Shown: positions 19,970 to 40,586 of the stretch, one piece after another
How the letters are laid out: every line of letters starts with the position of its first letter
Position numbering within the stretch: the first letter of the stretch is position 1
NCBI GenBank assembly: GCA_016207645.1
Contig: JACQPH010000166.1
Coordinates: 1 to 40,586, forward strand
Length of the DNA: 40,586 nucleotides
From: Elusimicrobiota bacterium
GTDB lineage: Bacteria; Elusimicrobiota; Elusimicrobia; Elusimicrobiales; UBA9959
Direction of reading: 5' to 3'
Made by a program: the position numbers and the translations under genes
Notes under the pieces: generated by a model
What the model saw: the letters and a program-made list of their open reading frames with translations, nothing else
Databases searched by the model: none
What the model was told of the DNA's origin: nothing

Positions 19970-21031
19970 TTAATCCTTGATCCTTGATCCTTTAGCTTGC
20001 AGCACGTCTTCGTAGGAGCGCAGCAGGATGTTGGCCACCACGGGCACGGACATATTGTTGTTCACGTAGCCAAAAGCCATGTTCGACATATTGTGGCAGA
20101 CCGAAGGGTCGCTGATAAGGCGTATCACCGCCCTGGCGAAGGCGAGCGGGTCGCCCGGCTCCACTATGATGCCGTTCCGCTCGTTCACCGTAAAATCGCT
20201 CAACCCCTTCAGCCGGGGCACCACGCAGGGCACGCCCGAAGCCTGGGCCTCTATAAGCGACAGCGAGAGCCCCGGGCGGCCGGCGGTCTTGGCGAAGATG
20301 TGCATCATCGCCATCACCTCGGGAATATCGTTGCGCTCCCAGAGTATGTCCACCTTGTGGCTGATCCCCAGGCCCCTGGCCAGCTCCCGTATCCTCGGGT
20401 CCTTGACGCCCACTATCATGAAATTCGTCTCCGGCAGCACGTCGAGGACCTCTTTGGCCATCATCAGGAAGAGTTCCTGTTCCTTCAGCGCGGGGTCCAT
20501 GCTTATGATGCCGACCTTGTAGGGGCGCTTCTGGAACATGGCGGGCCTGATCAGCATGGCGCTTTCCCAGCGGCCGATGTTCAGGCAGGGAGGGACCATG
20601 AAGGTGCGCTGCGGGTCTATGCCGGCTATGACGAATTCCTCCTGCACGGAATTGCAGGCCCCGACATAGAGGTCCACGTAGGGCTGAAGCTGAGCCAGCT
20701 TCTCGAAATTCGCCGCGCTGCCCAGCTTTATCTGGGTCACGAAGATGCGCGAACCGGCAGCCGCCTTTTTAAGGAACAGGGGGGAAAGGCCCGGCATATT
20801 GTAGAAATGAGCTATGTCCCAGCCGCCGGTCTCGTAAAAACCGAACTTGGCCCCCAGCGAGAACGGCCGCGCCTCCACCTTGAGCCTGGCGCATTCCGCG
20901 AACAGCGGGGAATTCCTCAGGCACAGCACGGCGGCGGTATGCCCCAGCTTCGCGAAACGCGCGGCGGTGTGCAGGGCCTGGTAGGCCACCATATCCCAGA
21001 CGGGGGAATCGCAGACGTTGAGTATCTTCAT
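19970..21031 (-). CDS. Glycosyltransferase family 4-like protein
   Basis: Start MKILNVCDSPVWDMVAYQALHTAARFAKLGH; GRPGLSLSLIEAQASGVPCVVPRLKGL. Confidence 0.85.
   Translation of the reverse strand: MKILNVCDSPVWDMVAYQALHTAARFAKLGHTAAVLCLRNSPLFAECARLKVEARPFSLGAKFGFYETGGWDIAHFYNMPGLSPLFLKKAAAGSRIFVTQIKLGSAANFEKLAQLQPYVDLYVGACNSVQEEFVIAGIDPQRTFMVPPCLNIGRWESAMLIRPAMFQKRPYKVGIISMDPALKEQELFLMMAKEVLDVLPETNFMIVGVKDPRIRELARGLGISHKVDILWERNDIPEVMAMMHIFAKTAGRPGLSLSLIEAQASGVPCVVPRLKGLSDFTVNERNGIIVEPGDPLAFARAVIRLISDPSVCHNMSNMAFGYVNNNMSVPVVANILLRSYEDVLQAKGSRIKD
19973..19993 (-). repeat. Heptanucleotide tandem repeat (AAGGATN)3 at the gene 3' end
   Basis: + strand ATCCTTG ATCCTTG ATCCTTT; encodes part of the C-terminal KGSRIKD-stop. 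Confidence 0.75.
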
Positions 21032-21771
21032 CGGCGAGATCCGCCCCGCGGCGGGAGCCTCGTCCCGGCCAGCTTCTTGAGCTCTTTCACGGCGTTCTTT
21101 ACATAGGCCTCGTCGCGGGAAGTGGCCGCTATGTCGGCGTAGATAGCGGCGGCTGCCGCGTAATTGCCCGCCTTCTTGTTGAGGAAGGCCGCCAGCTGCT
21201 TGAGCATCACCGGGCAGTCGGGGTCCTTCAGGATAGGGGCGATGGTCTCGGCTACCGCGGCCGCGTTCCCGGATCTGCTGTAGCCTATGGCCGCCAGCAT
21301 GGTGAGGTACTTCCACTCCTTCGGGTTGTATCCGAGGGCGAAGCTTATGAGCGCCCGCGCCTCCTCCCCGCGCTGCATGTTAAAGGCCAGGCAGGCCGCG
21401 CCGTAAAGGCCCGCCGCGGTGAAAGCGGGGTCCACTTCAAGGACGTGGCGGGCCATCGGGAAGAACAGCGGGTAGTCGCCGGCGCCGTAATTTTCATGTT
21501 CCCCGTGGCGGTGCTCCCCGTTCCCGGCCTCTTCCTCGCCGTGGAATTCCCTGGAGCCGTAATACTGCAGCAGGCGTATGAACCAGAGGTCCGCGAAAAG
21601 ACGGCGCGACCCGGAGGCCAGGGCCAGCATGTCCCCGGCGGCGCCGGCGGCCGGGACCCGCATTTCCGACGGGGGCGGGAAGGGGCTGGCGTAGCCGCGG
21701 GCCAGAAAACCGCCGGCGGCCCAGGCGAGGAGGGCGGCGGCTAGTGTGGTGTCCCGCAGATAGTTATACAT
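21028..21771 (-). CDS. Hypothetical membrane-anchored TPR-like protein
   Basis: Start taken as MYNYLRDTTLAAALLAWAAGGFLARG; the longer N-terminus in the ORF track is encoded by the repeat element. Confidence 0.75.
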   Translation of the reverse strand: MYNYLRDTTLAAALLAWAAGGFLARGYASPFPPPSEMRVPAAGAAGDMLALASGSRRLFADLWFIRLLQYYGSREFHGEEEAGNGEHRHGEHENYGAGDYPLFFPMARHVLEVDPAFTAAGLYGAACLAFNMQRGEEARALISFALGYNPKEWKYLTMLAAIGYSRSGNAAAVAETIAPILKDPDCPVMLKQLAAFLNKKAGNYAAAAAIYADIAATSRDEAYVKNAVKELKKLAGTRLPPRGGSRR

Positions 21772-21775
21772 TATG

Positions 21776-21965
21776 GTGGAGGGTCGGCCGGGGTTTTGTT
21801 TCGCGAACCCCTTGCGGAAGGGGGGCCCCGCTTCGGGGGGAAACCGACGCAAGGGGTTCCGAAGCTATGCTAGTGTCGCATAAAAGGGCTATGCCCATCA
21901 AGCGACCCTCTTCCGGGGTTCGCGGGGCAAAACCCCGGCCAACCCGAACCCTGTATAGCGACCTG
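21776..21965. mobile_element. Putative MITE-like inverted-repeat element, apparently complete copy B
   Basis: Left arm 21776-21811 (GTGGAGGGTCGGCCGGGGTTTTGTTTCGCGAACCCC) is inverted relative to right arm 21915-21945; internal stem GAACCCCTTGCG/CGCAAGGGGTTC; flanked by AGTTATACATTATG / AGTTACACATTATG. Confidence 0.7.
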
Positions 21966-21987
21966 AGTTACACATTATGAAGGCTCA

Positions 21988-22749
21988 TCAGAATTCCTTG
22001 CGCGAGAGCAGCCAGAGGGACCCCAGGAAAGAGGCCGCTACCCAGGCGGCGGCGGGCAGAAGCACGGCGGGGCCCGGGGCGGCGGCGGCGCCCGCGGCGT
22101 CGCGGGCGTTGAAGAGCTGCAGGTTCGGGATAAGCCACAGGAAAACGCTTACGGCGGTCCCCTTAAGCCCGGGCAGGCGCTCGGCGAGGAAGCGGGCCTC
22201 GGAGGCGAAATGCCCCAGAGTCCACATTATCGAGGAGATGACCAGGGTGGAAACCGCGGAAGTGGAGAAGAGCGAGACGAAAAAAGCGAAGGAGACGATG
22301 ACGGCCAGCTTCAGGAAAGTGCCGGCCAGGGCCCAGGCGTAGAAAGGCGGCGGGCCGAAGCCCCTGAAGGCGAGCAGGGAAAGGTGCATGGCGGCCATTA
22401 TCAGGAGCATCAGCCCCGCCGTCAGCAGCGCCCCGCCCAGCTTCCCGGCCAGGTAGGCCCAGCGCGGCACGGGCCGCGAGAACACCAGGTAGATGGTCTT
22501 GGTCTCGGCCTCCTTGAGCAGGGCCGAGGAGGCGCCGAAGAGGGCATAAGCCAGAGCCGTAAGCTCGATCAGCGCCAGGCCGAAATCGGCCAGCACCCTG
22601 GACTCCTGGTCCACGGCCATCACGCCGGCCAGCACGGAAGCGTAGACGGCGGTGAAGGCGAAGACGGCGAAAAGGGTGAAAAAGCGGTTGCGCACGCTCT
22701 CGGAGAAGGAATTGAAGGCGACGGCCCGCACGAGGAAGAGGCTGTTCAT
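21988..22749 (-). CDS. ABC transporter permease (ABC-2 type)
   Basis: FLVRAVAFNSFSESVRNRFFTLFAVFAFT; EAETKTIYLVFSRPVPRWAYLAGKLGG. Confidence 0.85.
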   Translation of the reverse strand: MNSLFLVRAVAFNSFSESVRNRFFTLFAVFAFTAVYASVLAGVMAVDQESRVLADFGLALIELTALAYALFGASSALLKEAETKTIYLVFSRPVPRWAYLAGKLGGALLTAGLMLLIMAAMHLSLLAFRGFGPPPFYAWALAGTFLKLAVIVSFAFFVSLFSTSAVSTLVISSIMWTLGHFASEARFLAERLPGLKGTAVSVFLWLIPNLQLFNARDAAGAAAAPGPAVLLPAAAWVAASFLGSLWLLSRKEF

Positions 22750-23483
22750 TTAACCGCCTCCACGAAGAGCTTCTCCAGCCCGCCGGGCGAGGCCTCCCAC
22801 TGCGCCCGGGTCACGGTGGCCGCCAGCGCGCCCCTCACCATGATCAGCACCCTCGAAGCCAGCTTCTCCACCTCGGAAATGCTGTGCGAGGAAAGGAAGA
22901 TGGCGCGCCCCTCGGCATTGAGCCCGGCCAGGAGGGCGCGGATATCGTGTATGGCCAGCGGGTCCAGACCGCTCACCGGCTCGTCGAGCACGAGGAGGTC
23001 CGGCTTGTGCAGCAGCGCCTGGGCCAGGCCGAGGCGCTGGAGCATCCCCTTCGAGAATTCGGAGATGCGCTTGCCCGCGTGCGGCTCCAGGCCGGTCCTG
23101 TGCATGGAGGACCCTACGGCGAGGGAGAGCTCCGCGCCGGAAAGGCCGGAAAGGCGCCCGTAGTAAGCGAGGGCGGCCGCCGGCTTCACCTGCGGCGGGA
23201 AATAGGGCAGCTCGGGGAGGAAGCCGACCCTGGCCTTGGCGGCCACGTCGGCAGGGGAGTGCCCGAAGACCGAGACCCGCCCGGCCGTGGGGAAGAGCAG
23301 CCCGGTTATCAGCTTCATTATGGTGGTCTTGCCGGCGCCGTTGAGGCCCAGCAGGCCGGTGACCTCGCCGGGCCGGACCTCGAACGAGAGGCCCTTTACG
23401 GCGGTATTGTACTCGGCGCCCAGCAGGCGGGGCCGCTTATAGGTTTTCTCGACGCCGGAGAAGGCTACCGCCGGGGCTGTCAT
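22746..23483 (-). CDS. ABC transporter ATP-binding protein
   Basis: GLNGAGKTTIMKLITGLL, FSKGMLQRLGLAQALLHKPDLLVLDEPVSGLDP. Confidence 0.93.
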   Translation of the reverse strand: MTAPAVAFSGVEKTYKRPRLLGAEYNTAVKGLSFEVRPGEVTGLLGLNGAGKTTIMKLITGLLFPTAGRVSVFGHSPADVAAKARVGFLPELPYFPPQVKPAAALAYYGRLSGLSGAELSLAVGSSMHRTGLEPHAGKRISEFSKGMLQRLGLAQALLHKPDLLVLDEPVSGLDPLAIHDIRALLAGLNAEGRAIFLSSHSISEVEKLASRVLIMVRGALAATVTRAQWEASPGGLEKLFVEAVK

Positions 23484-25312
23484 CTGACTATTTTATTCTC
23501 CTCGCGCCTCACCCGGCGCATCTCCTCCTGTATGCGGTCTATGGGGATCTCGCCCATCTTGAGGAAACCCGTATGGAACTTGCGCAGGTCGAAGTACTTG
23601 GCCTCGGTGCGCTGGTAATAGCGGCGCATCTCGAGCAGGCGGTCCAGCCCCAGTATAAAGCTGAACCCCTCGGTGGGGGCCAGGGAGAGCTTCAGCACCT
23701 CGGCGTCGGCCTGCGCCCTGGTCATGTGGAGGTTGTCCTGGAAGAACTGTGAAGCCTGCGCCGGGTCCCATTTCCCGGTGTGCAGGGCCGCGTCGGCGTA
23801 GGCCCTGGCCGCGCGCAGGGCCCGCACGTAGCAGCGGAGGAAGCGCGACCAGTAGGAGGAATAATAGCCCAGTTCCTCGGCCAGCAGTTCCGCGTAGCAG
23901 CCCCAGCCGTTGTTCACCACCGGCTGCCGGGAAACCCGGCGTATGCGGGAAGTGTTGGAGGAAGCCTCGAAGCTGCGCAAATGCATGCCCGGCATTATGG
24001 AATAGGCGGTAAGCAGCTCCAGCTGGGCGTAATTGAAGCTGGCGGCCAGGACCTTCTCCCGGGCGGCCTCGGCGGCGCCGTCGGGGGGCAGCAGGATGAA
24101 AAGCTCCGAGACGCGCGTGTCGTCCAGCGCGAAGGAAGGCGCGTAATGGACGTAAGGCAGTACCGAGGCCATGAAGCCGGGCATGCGCTTTATGAGCAGC
24201 CGCTGGCGGGGGAATTCCACCACCTTGTGCTCGTCGAAATGCTGGTACGAGCGGTCCATCTCGTCCTGGAAGACCTTCAGCACGTCGCCGGCCGGCGGGT
24301 GCTCCTTCGGGAGCTTGTCCAGCACGCCTTTCCAGCCGCTTTCCTTCGTTACCATCGCGTCGATGTTGAGCGCCTCCTTCTGGAGGTCCTTCATCGCCTT
24401 CTTGAAAGCGCTTTTAGAGTAGCTCAGGGCCGAGCCCGGGGTCATGTCCAGCGAATGCAGGCGCTCGAGGTAAAAGCCGTAGGAATCGCTGCCGGCCCGG
24501 AAATCGCCGTCGGCGTTGGGCAGCACGTCCTTCTGGAGGAACTCGGCGTAGCGCGCCAGGGCCGCCTTGACCTTCTCCATCGTCTCGTCGACCTGCACCT
24601 TGAGCGTGGGGTCGTAGCGGGTATAGCCGCGGAAGACCTGCGCGGAATCGGAGACGAAGTTATTGAGAGCGTCGTTCGCCTGCTTCATGGCCTGGCGGAC
24701 CCAGATCTCGGGCGGGCGGGAGAGGTTGCGCTCGGCCTGCGCCAGGACCGAAGGGAACTGCTGCAGGCGGGAGATGGCGTTGGAGGCGCGGGTATTGTAG
24801 TCCTCGTAGTCCTTGCTCATCATCTGGTAGACGAGGAAGAGCGGGTCGAGGTACTGCTGGGGCCGCCGGGCGAGCAGGCCGAGGTTCTCCATCTCGTAGA
24901 CGTCGACCTCCAGCATATGGTCCAGGGCCTCGTAGTCCACCCTCAGGGCGGGAGCCATTGAATCCTTCTTTATCTCGGCCAGCTTGGCCCGGAGCCGTCT
25001 GAAGGCCTCGAGCTGGCGCGTGACCCGCTCCTGCGAGCGGGCGGTAAGCAGCGAGTCCGAGCCGTGCAGGCCCAGCCGGGTGGCCCTCTCGGGGTCGTAC
25101 ATCTGTATGGTGGCCAGGTACTGGGAGAAGACTTCGTTGAGCTTGGTGCCCTCCAGCGCGCCCTCTATATCGGCGGCGGTGAGCTTGTCCTCGTAGGCGT
25201 GAAGGGGAAGGGTGGAGGGTAGAAGGCAGAGGGCGGAGGTGAGCAGCAGCGCCGCCGTGAAAAGACCGCGCCTGCGCTGCGGGCGGGGTCCGGGAGAGAG
25301 CAAAGTCTTCAT
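23480..25312 (-). CDS. DUF885 domain-containing protein (putative exported peptidase-like)
   Basis: Signal-peptide-like N-terminus; DUF885-type sequence incl. LDHMLEVDVYEMENL, QYLDPLFLVYQMM, GWGCYAELLAEELGYY. Confidence 0.85.
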   Translation of the reverse strand: MKTLLSPGPRPQRRRGLFTAALLLTSALCLLPSTLPLHAYEDKLTAADIEGALEGTKLNEVFSQYLATIQMYDPERATRLGLHGSDSLLTARSQERVTRQLEAFRRLRAKLAEIKKDSMAPALRVDYEALDHMLEVDVYEMENLGLLARRPQQYLDPLFLVYQMMSKDYEDYNTRASNAISRLQQFPSVLAQAERNLSRPPEIWVRQAMKQANDALNNFVSDSAQVFRGYTRYDPTLKVQVDETMEKVKAALARYAEFLQKDVLPNADGDFRAGSDSYGFYLERLHSLDMTPGSALSYSKSAFKKAMKDLQKEALNIDAMVTKESGWKGVLDKLPKEHPPAGDVLKVFQDEMDRSYQHFDEHKVVEFPRQRLLIKRMPGFMASVLPYVHYAPSFALDDTRVSELFILLPPDGAAEAAREKVLAASFNYAQLELLTAYSIMPGMHLRSFEASSNTSRIRRVSRQPVVNNGWGCYAELLAEELGYYSSYWSRFLRCYVRALRAARAYADAALHTGKWDPAQASQFFQDNLHMTRAQADAEVLKLSLAPTEGFSFILGLDRLLEMRRYYQRTEAKYFDLRKFHTGFLKMGEIPIDRIQEEMRRVRREENKIVR

Positions 25313-29665: not shown

Positions 29666-29749
29666 TGTCGGGACGGGGACTTGAACCCCGACGGGAATTA
29701 CCCCACATGGTCCTAAGCCATGCGCGTCTGCCGATTCCGCCATCCCGAC
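29666..29749 (-). tRNA. tRNA-Leu(TAG)
   Basis: Acceptor GTCGGGA/TCCCGAC; anticodon arm CATGG-CTTAGGA-CCATG; variable arm; T-arm CGGGG-TTCAAGT-CCCCG. Confidence 0.93.
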
Positions 29750-29821: not shown

Positions 29822-29839
29822 CAGGTGCGAAAATAGACG

Positions 29840-29911
29840 TGGGCCATACGGGATTCGAACCTGTAACCTTGCGCTTAAGAGGCGCCTGCTCTACCGTTGA
29901 GCTAATGGCCC
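29840..29911 (-). tRNA. tRNA-Lys(CTT)
   Basis: Acceptor GGGCCAT/ATGGCCC; anticodon loop CTCTTAA; T-loop TTCGAAT; 72 nt fold with mismatches in anticodon and T stems. Confidence 0.88.
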
Positions 29912-39962: not shown

Positions 39963-40540
39963 AGGACGAACAAAGGTGCCCGTGGGCTTACGGCTCCAGC
40001 CCGCTTTATGTCCCGTACCACGATACCGAATGGGGCGTTCCGTCGCATGACGACCGGGTACAGTTCGAATTCCTCACGCTGGAAAGCGCGCAGGCGGGGC
40101 TGAGCTGGTCGACGATCCTGAACAAGCGGGAAGGCTACAGGAAAGCCTTCGCCGGCTTCGACCCGGCGAAAGTCGCGCGGTTCACGCCGGCGAAGATGGA
40201 AGCGCTGCTTAAGGACCCCGGCATAGTGCGCAACCGCCTGAAGGTGGGCGCCGCCGTGAATAACGCGCGACTCTTCCTTCAGGTGCGGAAGGAGTTCGGC
40301 TCCTTCTCTAAATATATCTGGTCTTTCGTCGGGGGGAAACCGAAGGTCAACCGCTGGACCCGGCTCGGGCAGCTGCCGGCTTTCTCCAAAGAATCCGACG
40401 CCCTCAGCGCCGACCTGAAAAGGCGCGGCTTCAAGTTCGTAGGCAGCACCATCATCTACGCCCACATGCAGGCCACCGGCCTGGTCAACGACCACCTGAC
40501 GACCTGCTTCAGGCACCGGGCCTGCTCGAAAATCAAGTAA
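39959..40540 (+). CDS. tag: DNA-3-methyladenine glycosylase I
   Basis: RCPWAYGSSPLYVPYHDTEWGVPSHDDRVQFEFLTLESAQAGLSWSTILNKREGYRKAFAGFD; FVGSTIIYAHMQATGLVNDHLTTCFRH. Confidence 0.95.
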   Translation: MKDEQRCPWAYGSSPLYVPYHDTEWGVPSHDDRVQFEFLTLESAQAGLSWSTILNKREGYRKAFAGFDPAKVARFTPAKMEALLKDPGIVRNRLKVGAAVNNARLFLQVRKEFGSFSKYIWSFVGGKPKVNRWTRLGQLPAFSKESDALSADLKRRGFKFVGSTIIYAHMQATGLVNDHLTTCFRHRACSKIK

Positions 40541-40545
40541 CTACT

Positions 40546-40586
40546 CAGGTAGTGGAGGGTCGGCCGGGGTTTTGTTTCGCGAACCC
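40546..40586 (+). repeat. Dispersed repeat copy C (outer arm, truncated by window end)
   Basis: CAGGTAGTGGAGGGTCGGCCGGGGTTTTGTTTCGCGAACCC; last 35 nt identical to 21776-21810. Confidence 0.92.

Follow-up and report, generated by a model that had tools for sequence, protein, structure and literature searches.

A MITE Family of the Elusimicrobiota with a Conserved and Probably RNA-Level Structured Interior

Introduction

The interiors of MITEs are commonly regarded as unconstrained leftovers. A long inverted repeat that separates two genes in the genome of an Elusimicrobiota bacterium raises three questions in this respect: what kind of element is it, how did it arrive at its site, and why does its interior fold? 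The DNA analyzed here, called the window below, is a stretch of 40,586 nucleotides that constitutes the entire contig C144 of a 2.80-Mb genome assembly, which consists of 167 contigs, is 81% complete, and is broken at repeats. The repeat at positions 21776–21971 is one damaged copy, 196 bp long, of a small mobile element with dozens of copies in this genome. Taken as a whole, the observations are, in our judgment, probably best explained by an inactive MITE copy that was likely moved in trans by an IS66-type mechanism, and whose interior is an older folded element of intergenic spaces, likely an RNA.

In the first part of this report, we describe the copy in the window, its family, and the probable source of its movement. 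In the second part, we consider the structured core, its distribution, and the reasons for which its fold may have been kept.

The Copy in the Window and Its Empty Site

The copy (21776–21971, plus strand) is flanked by two identical sequences of 8 bp, ACATTATG, at 21768–21775 and 21972–21979 (plus strand), which matches the duplication length of the family as a whole. A preliminary description of the locus had proposed a target-site duplication of 14 bp. The flanks on which this was based, AGTTATACATTATG and AGTTACACATTATG, are indeed present, but the right-hand AGTTAC is part of the element and is merely similar to the host AGTTAT, and the duplication itself is 8 bp long. The copy had also been taken as complete, whereas comparison with other copies reveals that its 15-base left terminal repeat, GTAACTACTCAGGTA, has been deleted. 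The right terminal repeat, GACCTGAGTTAC (21960–21971, plus strand), lacks three bases of the family form GACCTGAGTAGTTAC. Because the left end is gone and the right end is three bases short, this copy is probably immobile.

All strings of the preliminary description are at the places that it gave. The two arms of the inverted repeat, 21781–21811 and 21915–21945, are 31 nt long and 87% complementary. No second inverted repeat of comparable quality is present in 20001–24000, nor is there any in three composition-preserving shuffles, and the predicted fold of the repeat lies far below those of shuffled sequences on both strands (z = −7.2 and −6.2). The perfect inner stem of 12 bp that had been described (21805–21816/21848–21859) also exists, but it is perfect only by virtue of a base change specific to this copy (GGGGTTCC for the family's GGGTTTCC), which the covariation alignment places in a hairpin, P3 (21837–21860, plus strand); covariation supports another pairing.

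The insertion lies between two genes on the minus strand, namely an ABC-2-type permease gene upstream (21988–22749) and a gene with a weak TPR match downstream (21028–21771), whose start codon is inside the target duplication. In 16 relatives, the two genes overlap or have no more than 29 nt, and no insertion, between them, as against a spacing of 219 nt in the window; in the relative L327 the permease match stops early, which makes its gap size less certain. The overlapping or adjoining genes in these relatives thus provide a clear empty site for the window locus, the kind of allele by which the preliminary description had proposed to test its reading. Because the second gene has its start codon within the target duplication, the insertion parted two genes that overlap or nearly touch in relatives without destroying that codon.

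Ends, Copy Number, and Target Duplications of the Family

When the copies are aligned with their flanks, they share a left end, GTAACTRCTCAGGTA-GTGGAGGG, and a right end, ACCTGAGTAGTTAC, that extend beyond the ends first described. The family ends are GTAACTRCYCRGGT, with an optional further A, and form terminal inverted repeats of 14–15 bp. Shared boundaries, on which the preliminary description had made its proposal depend, are therefore present. A sequence search of the own genome retrieved 93 matching pieces, and the copy number is about 70 or more. With at most one mismatch, the end pattern has 143 matches in this genome, compared with a single match for the reversed control pattern. A search for the exact 30-nt arm over all genome contigs returned no match. 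Exact ends number 70 in the window's genome and 0–2 in each of 40 other genomes searched; among the genus genomes searched, amplification of the MITE is confined to the window's species.

Perfect duplications of 8 bp surround 8 of the 35 candidate end pairs for which both flanks are available, and perfect duplications of 5, 6, 7, 9, or 10 bp surround none of them. When duplications that are at least 7/8 identical are counted, the number rises to 12 of 35, versus an expectation of 0.45. Full copies are about 165–220 bp long, which is below 300 bp, and contain no coding gene. They have common ends and target duplications of fixed length, they are dispersed in many copies, and relatives have the empty site at the window locus. 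These are properties of a MITE, and the original proposal of an undescribed, non-autonomous, MITE-like element is borne out.

Two further copies are cut off by the two ends of the contig, and their terminal sequences account for the outlying strings that had been noticed earlier, CTCAGGCA at the beginning of the window and CTCAGGTA near 40546. According to copy comparison and model matches, the first of these partial copies occupies 1–53 on the minus strand, with its terminal repeat at 39–53 (GTAAACGCTCAGGCA on the minus strand), and the second occupies 40537–40586 on the plus strand, where the left terminal repeat (40537–40551) is intact. Many contigs of the window's genome break off within element copies, C144 at both ends, and the copies help to account for the break points of the assembly.

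There are also elements with GTAAC ends that have no core: L057:1501–1560 (60 bp), L058:1434–1514 (81 bp), and L049:1501–1573 (73 bp). The 60- and 81-bp elements are surrounded by perfect 8-bp duplications, which indicates that the ends define the mobile unit.

A Probable IS66-Type Source of Movement

The ends of IS66 elements begin with GTAA and their duplications are 8 bp long (PMC11946415), and both hallmarks are found in the MITE. The search for a transposase with matching ends, suggested in the preliminary description, succeeded in a sister genus of the same family and not in the window's genome. In the latter, neither IS66 (PF03050) nor DruA (PF14236) was found, the assembly being 81% complete and broken at repeats, and no IS66 transposase was found in the other genus genomes searched. 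The sister-genus genome G033 has an element (L184:32–2467) bounded by GTAACTACTCAGAT and GTAACTGCCCAGGT, in which an IS66 transposase (PF03050, zf-IS66) is accompanied by an adjoining gene with a DruA domain (PF14236). A second G033 element, 1.2 kb in length, carries GTAACTACTCAGGT at both ends. A clear target duplication is absent at both of these elements.

Since an IS66-family element with the same ends exists in the sister genus, IS66-type mobilization in trans is likely, and an IS66-type transposase is our best inference for the mover of the MITE. Such a transposase would bind the GTAACTRCYCRGGT ends in trans and make the 8-bp target duplications.

A Branched Fold Kept on One Strand

The alignments of copies reveal that the core is a branched hairpin of about 130 nt, with a long stem (P1), two hairpins (P2 and P3), and conserved junction bases, whereas the P1 sequence itself varies freely. 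In the window copy, all parts are on the plus strand: the 5' arm of P1 at 21782–21811, supported by covariation in 62 sequences and by a covariance-model match; the conserved P1–P2 junction, TTGCGGAAGG, at 21812–21821, where the columns are nearly invariant; hairpin P2 (CCCCGCTTCGGGG) at 21826–21838, both sides of which change in relatives; hairpin P3, mentioned above; and the 3' arm of P1 at 21914–21940, again supported by covariation and a model match. The covariance model matches this copy at 21779–21944 with 82 bits.

Across the 62 sequences, standard pairs fill 94% of the pair cells, and this value falls to 39–56% when the partner is slid by 1–3 columns. Changes on both sides occur at 25 of the 45 pairs, in 332 cells versus 85 in shuffles. 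In other words, the covariation test proposed for this repeat yields compensatory changes in excess of both the shuffled and the slid controls, as would be expected of a structured RNA. Among the P1 mismatches of 105 genus copies, G–T outnumbers A–C by 116 to 17 (P = 3e-19), and the bias persists in copies that are antisense to both neighbors (35:4). The excess of G–T over A–C identifies one strand as the folding strand. Covariation and the strand-specific G–U wobble together show that the core is maintained as a folded single strand with one fixed polarity. Judged from sequence, this strand is most likely RNA, and single-stranded DNA is possible.

It should be mentioned that the covariance model recognizes the palindrome on its reverse strand as well, with up to 51 bits. 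For this reason, alignment A4 was excluded, and distant matches were accepted only after inspection of their sequences. A candidate pseudoknot, TTGCG/CGCAA, was rejected: it can be drawn in most copies, but it displays no compensatory change, 12 of the 62 sequences break one of its pairs, and distant relatives do not have it.

Additions to the core were also observed. In one species, several copies (L102–L108, from G024) have an insertion of about 100 nt and of variable sequence in the P2 loop, and in another species (L128, from G013) the P3 loop is enlarged. Copy comparison assigns to the window copy an additional 47-nt module (21861–21907, plus strand), which is present in the copies of about 190 bp and not in those of about 145 bp. 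This 45–47-nt module (GAAGCTATGCTAGTGCCGTATCAAAGGGCTATGCCC..GACGGCC) follows P3 in the long copies, and a similar module lies within the 3' arm of P1 in three copies of the same genome (L010, L017, and L024). It occurs at 15 exact places in the genome versus none in the control, and may be a tiny inserting unit itself.

Distribution of the Core

With a 143-bp copy as the query, the inner part was found in 27 of 61 genomes, all from a single genus. Of the 32 genus genomes, 31 gave hits to the covariance model, with one to at least 56 matches in each, as did one of five family members from other genera in the same set. A scan of 200 genomes sampled from the phylum added copies from two genomes that belong to another genus of the family and from three that fall outside the family. 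The distant copies that were inspected retain the GCGGA junction and the P1–P2–P3 layout, with P2 rewritten. The named genomes that carry the core motif are Elusimicrobia (GWA2_61_42, GWC2_61_19, GWC2_64_44, and others) or MAGs titled "bacterium". In G204, which belongs to another Elusimicrobiota family, a homologous core is located inside a separate MITE with the ends G[AT]AAGGGTTTAGCGCAGGGG (L219 and L222–L233) and 125 bp between its inner ends; its 8-bp duplications are perfect in 5 of 11 cases and agree at 6/8 or more in 10 of 11.

Rfam 15 recognizes only two tRNAs in the window, with no gathering-score match for the core, and no match near the threshold at other core loci. Genes for tRNA-Leu (TAG) and tRNA-Lys (CTT) are located at 29666–29749 and 29839–29911 (minus strand) of the window. 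The core pattern was not found in viral contigs, blastn against plasmids and phages gave no matches, and we found nothing in the literature on such repeats in Elusimicrobia.

Genomic Context and Neighbors of the Core

A codon-trained gene finder, which was a custom script, places each of the 102 genus copies that have usable calls between genes; some of the copies are orthologous and hence non-independent. The placements "inside a gene" that came from a plain-ORF pass were nearly all removed by the codon-trained pass. Several loci are shared across species, with the core upstream of aspS in four, of glyA in two, and of an etfB-like gene in two, where the gene names are what we take the protein starts to indicate. 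At the glyA site, the flanks can be aligned, and the P1 arms differ strongly yet are still paired. Where genus copies are not part of the MITE, their presumed edges show target duplications no more often than expected by chance.

A second structured repeat of about 110 nt, "B" (GGGGACCGGAACGCAAAAC...CACACCGTG...GGTTTTGCTAACCCGGTCCCC), is found at L180:361–472 (plus strand), L263:1234–1345 (minus), and L259:812–926 (plus), and in the window's own genome at L044:998–1109 (minus). Double changes occur at 13 of its 25 predicted pairs, and Rfam gave no credible match. B precedes the core on the same strand, at a distance of no more than 250 nt, in 14 of 22 copies, and in none of the 22 is it found on the opposite strand or downstream within that range.

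Two tails were also observed beside the core. Six genus copies (L138, L141, L075, L095, L129, and L135) have a right tail ending in TGACGTGAGT, and directly outside each of them are inverted repeats of 7–14 bp whose sequence differs from copy to copy; these repeats are either an outer stem or the result of insertion into palindromes. The tail CCCCGACTNNGCATCTCGCGG, seen for example at L237, L092, L093, and L111 (minus strand), is located 3' of the core in many genus copies. It is also present in another genus (L237), and after other structured sequence without the core.

Why the Fold May Have Been Kept

The insertion has an 8-bp duplication and ends shared with its family, its site is unoccupied in relatives, and its single-strand fold is conserved. 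We suggest that the element represents a new MITE family with a conserved structured domain that probably functions at the RNA level. On this account, the interior of the MITE is a copy of an older structured element of intergenic spaces, spread across the genus and with relatives elsewhere in the phylum. The core would be transcribed within the RNA between genes, and selection may keep its fold because a folded RNA is harmless or useful there. A broader reading, which we put forward tentatively and hold to be somewhat less probable than its opposite, is that the Elusimicrobiota possess a class of mobile structured RNAs (the core, often with B upstream on the same strand) that acts between genes at the RNA level and was taken up at least twice by different MITEs with 8-bp duplications.

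Among copies flanked by tandem genes, one third run antisense with an unchanged wobble bias; this does not agree with simple operon read-through and would be compatible with the fold having a part in spread. The strongest rival holds that the core is needed for mobility: a folded single strand, DNA or RNA, would be recognized by the transposition machinery or by a host factor, and the fold would be kept through successful spread and not through a role in the host. The 35:4 bias in antisense copies speaks for it, as does the presence of the core within 8-bp-duplication MITEs in two distant lineages. However, the core-less MITEs of 60 and 81 bp have perfect duplications, and genus copies without duplications persist at orthologous sites with compensated arms. 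We regard this rival as unlikely.

Much less probable is a cis-acting regulator, riboswitch-like or an attenuator, of particular downstream genes. In its favor, covariation is strong, the core is oriented with tandem neighbors in 58 cases and against them in 25 (P = 4e-4), and it recurs upstream of aspS, glyA, and the etfB-like gene in different species. Against this, the downstream genes are of all kinds, a third of the tandem-gene copies are antisense, and some copies lie between convergent genes. The REP-type reading of the preliminary description, in which a Y1 (RAYT) transposase spreads the element, is very improbable, and for the MITE it is largely refuted: the element is palindromic and intergenic with a GGAG-like left edge, and most genus genomes have Y1 transposases, but it has terminal repeats and exact 8-bp duplications, and three relatives without a detected Y1 carry 14, 19, and 23 core copies.

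Under the preferred account, that of an IS66-ended MITE with an older, probably RNA-level interior, the interior is the most conserved part of the element, with a genus-wide fold in the midst of changing ends and arm sequences. It offers a clear test of whether intergenic repeats owe their persistence to an RNA that does the host no harm or benefits it, and it adds a new candidate RNA family from a little-studied phylum.

Comparison with Known Systems

The closest kind of element is bcr1–bcr3 of the Bacillus cereus group. These repeats are described as similar to MITEs in structure and function, are often located in untranslated regions or in intergenic operon RNA, and are restricted to one bacterial group, and bcr1 averages 39 copies per strain (PMC3446304, PMC6542083). 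The likeness is one of description (MITE-like, many copies, group-restricted), and the covariation-tested structure refers to the Elusimicrobiota element alone. The mobility of bcr1–bcr3 is tied to a TTTAT motif, whereas the Elusimicrobiota element has IS66-like GTAAC ends and 8-bp duplications. The published intrastrand triplex motif of E. coli, 34–36 nt long (PMC4666352), differs in layout from the core; the G-rich tracts beside the P2 C-run could in principle provide a putative third strand, as an idea only.

With MITEs derived from IS66 and other IS elements (PMC11946415; PMC3189936 for bacterial MITEs), the element shares its GTAA starts and 8-bp duplications, and a sister-genus IS66 transposase lies between the same ends. 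The published IS66 ends start with GTAAGCG (PMC11946415), whereas those in the Elusimicrobiota start with GTAACTA or GTAACTG, and no conserved structured interior is described for IS66-type or bacterial MITEs in these sources (PMC11946415, PMC3189936). REP elements and REPINs (PMC3733652) are likewise palindromic, intergenic, and present in many copies. However, REP elements are 20–40 bp long (PMC3733652), whereas the Elusimicrobiota element measures about 165–220 bp and has terminal repeats, exact 8-bp duplications, and a branched core of about 130 nt, without a link to Y1. Because of its exact duplications and its independence of Y1, we rate it as a new family of IS66-ended MITEs, with a structured interior that has a distribution of its own.
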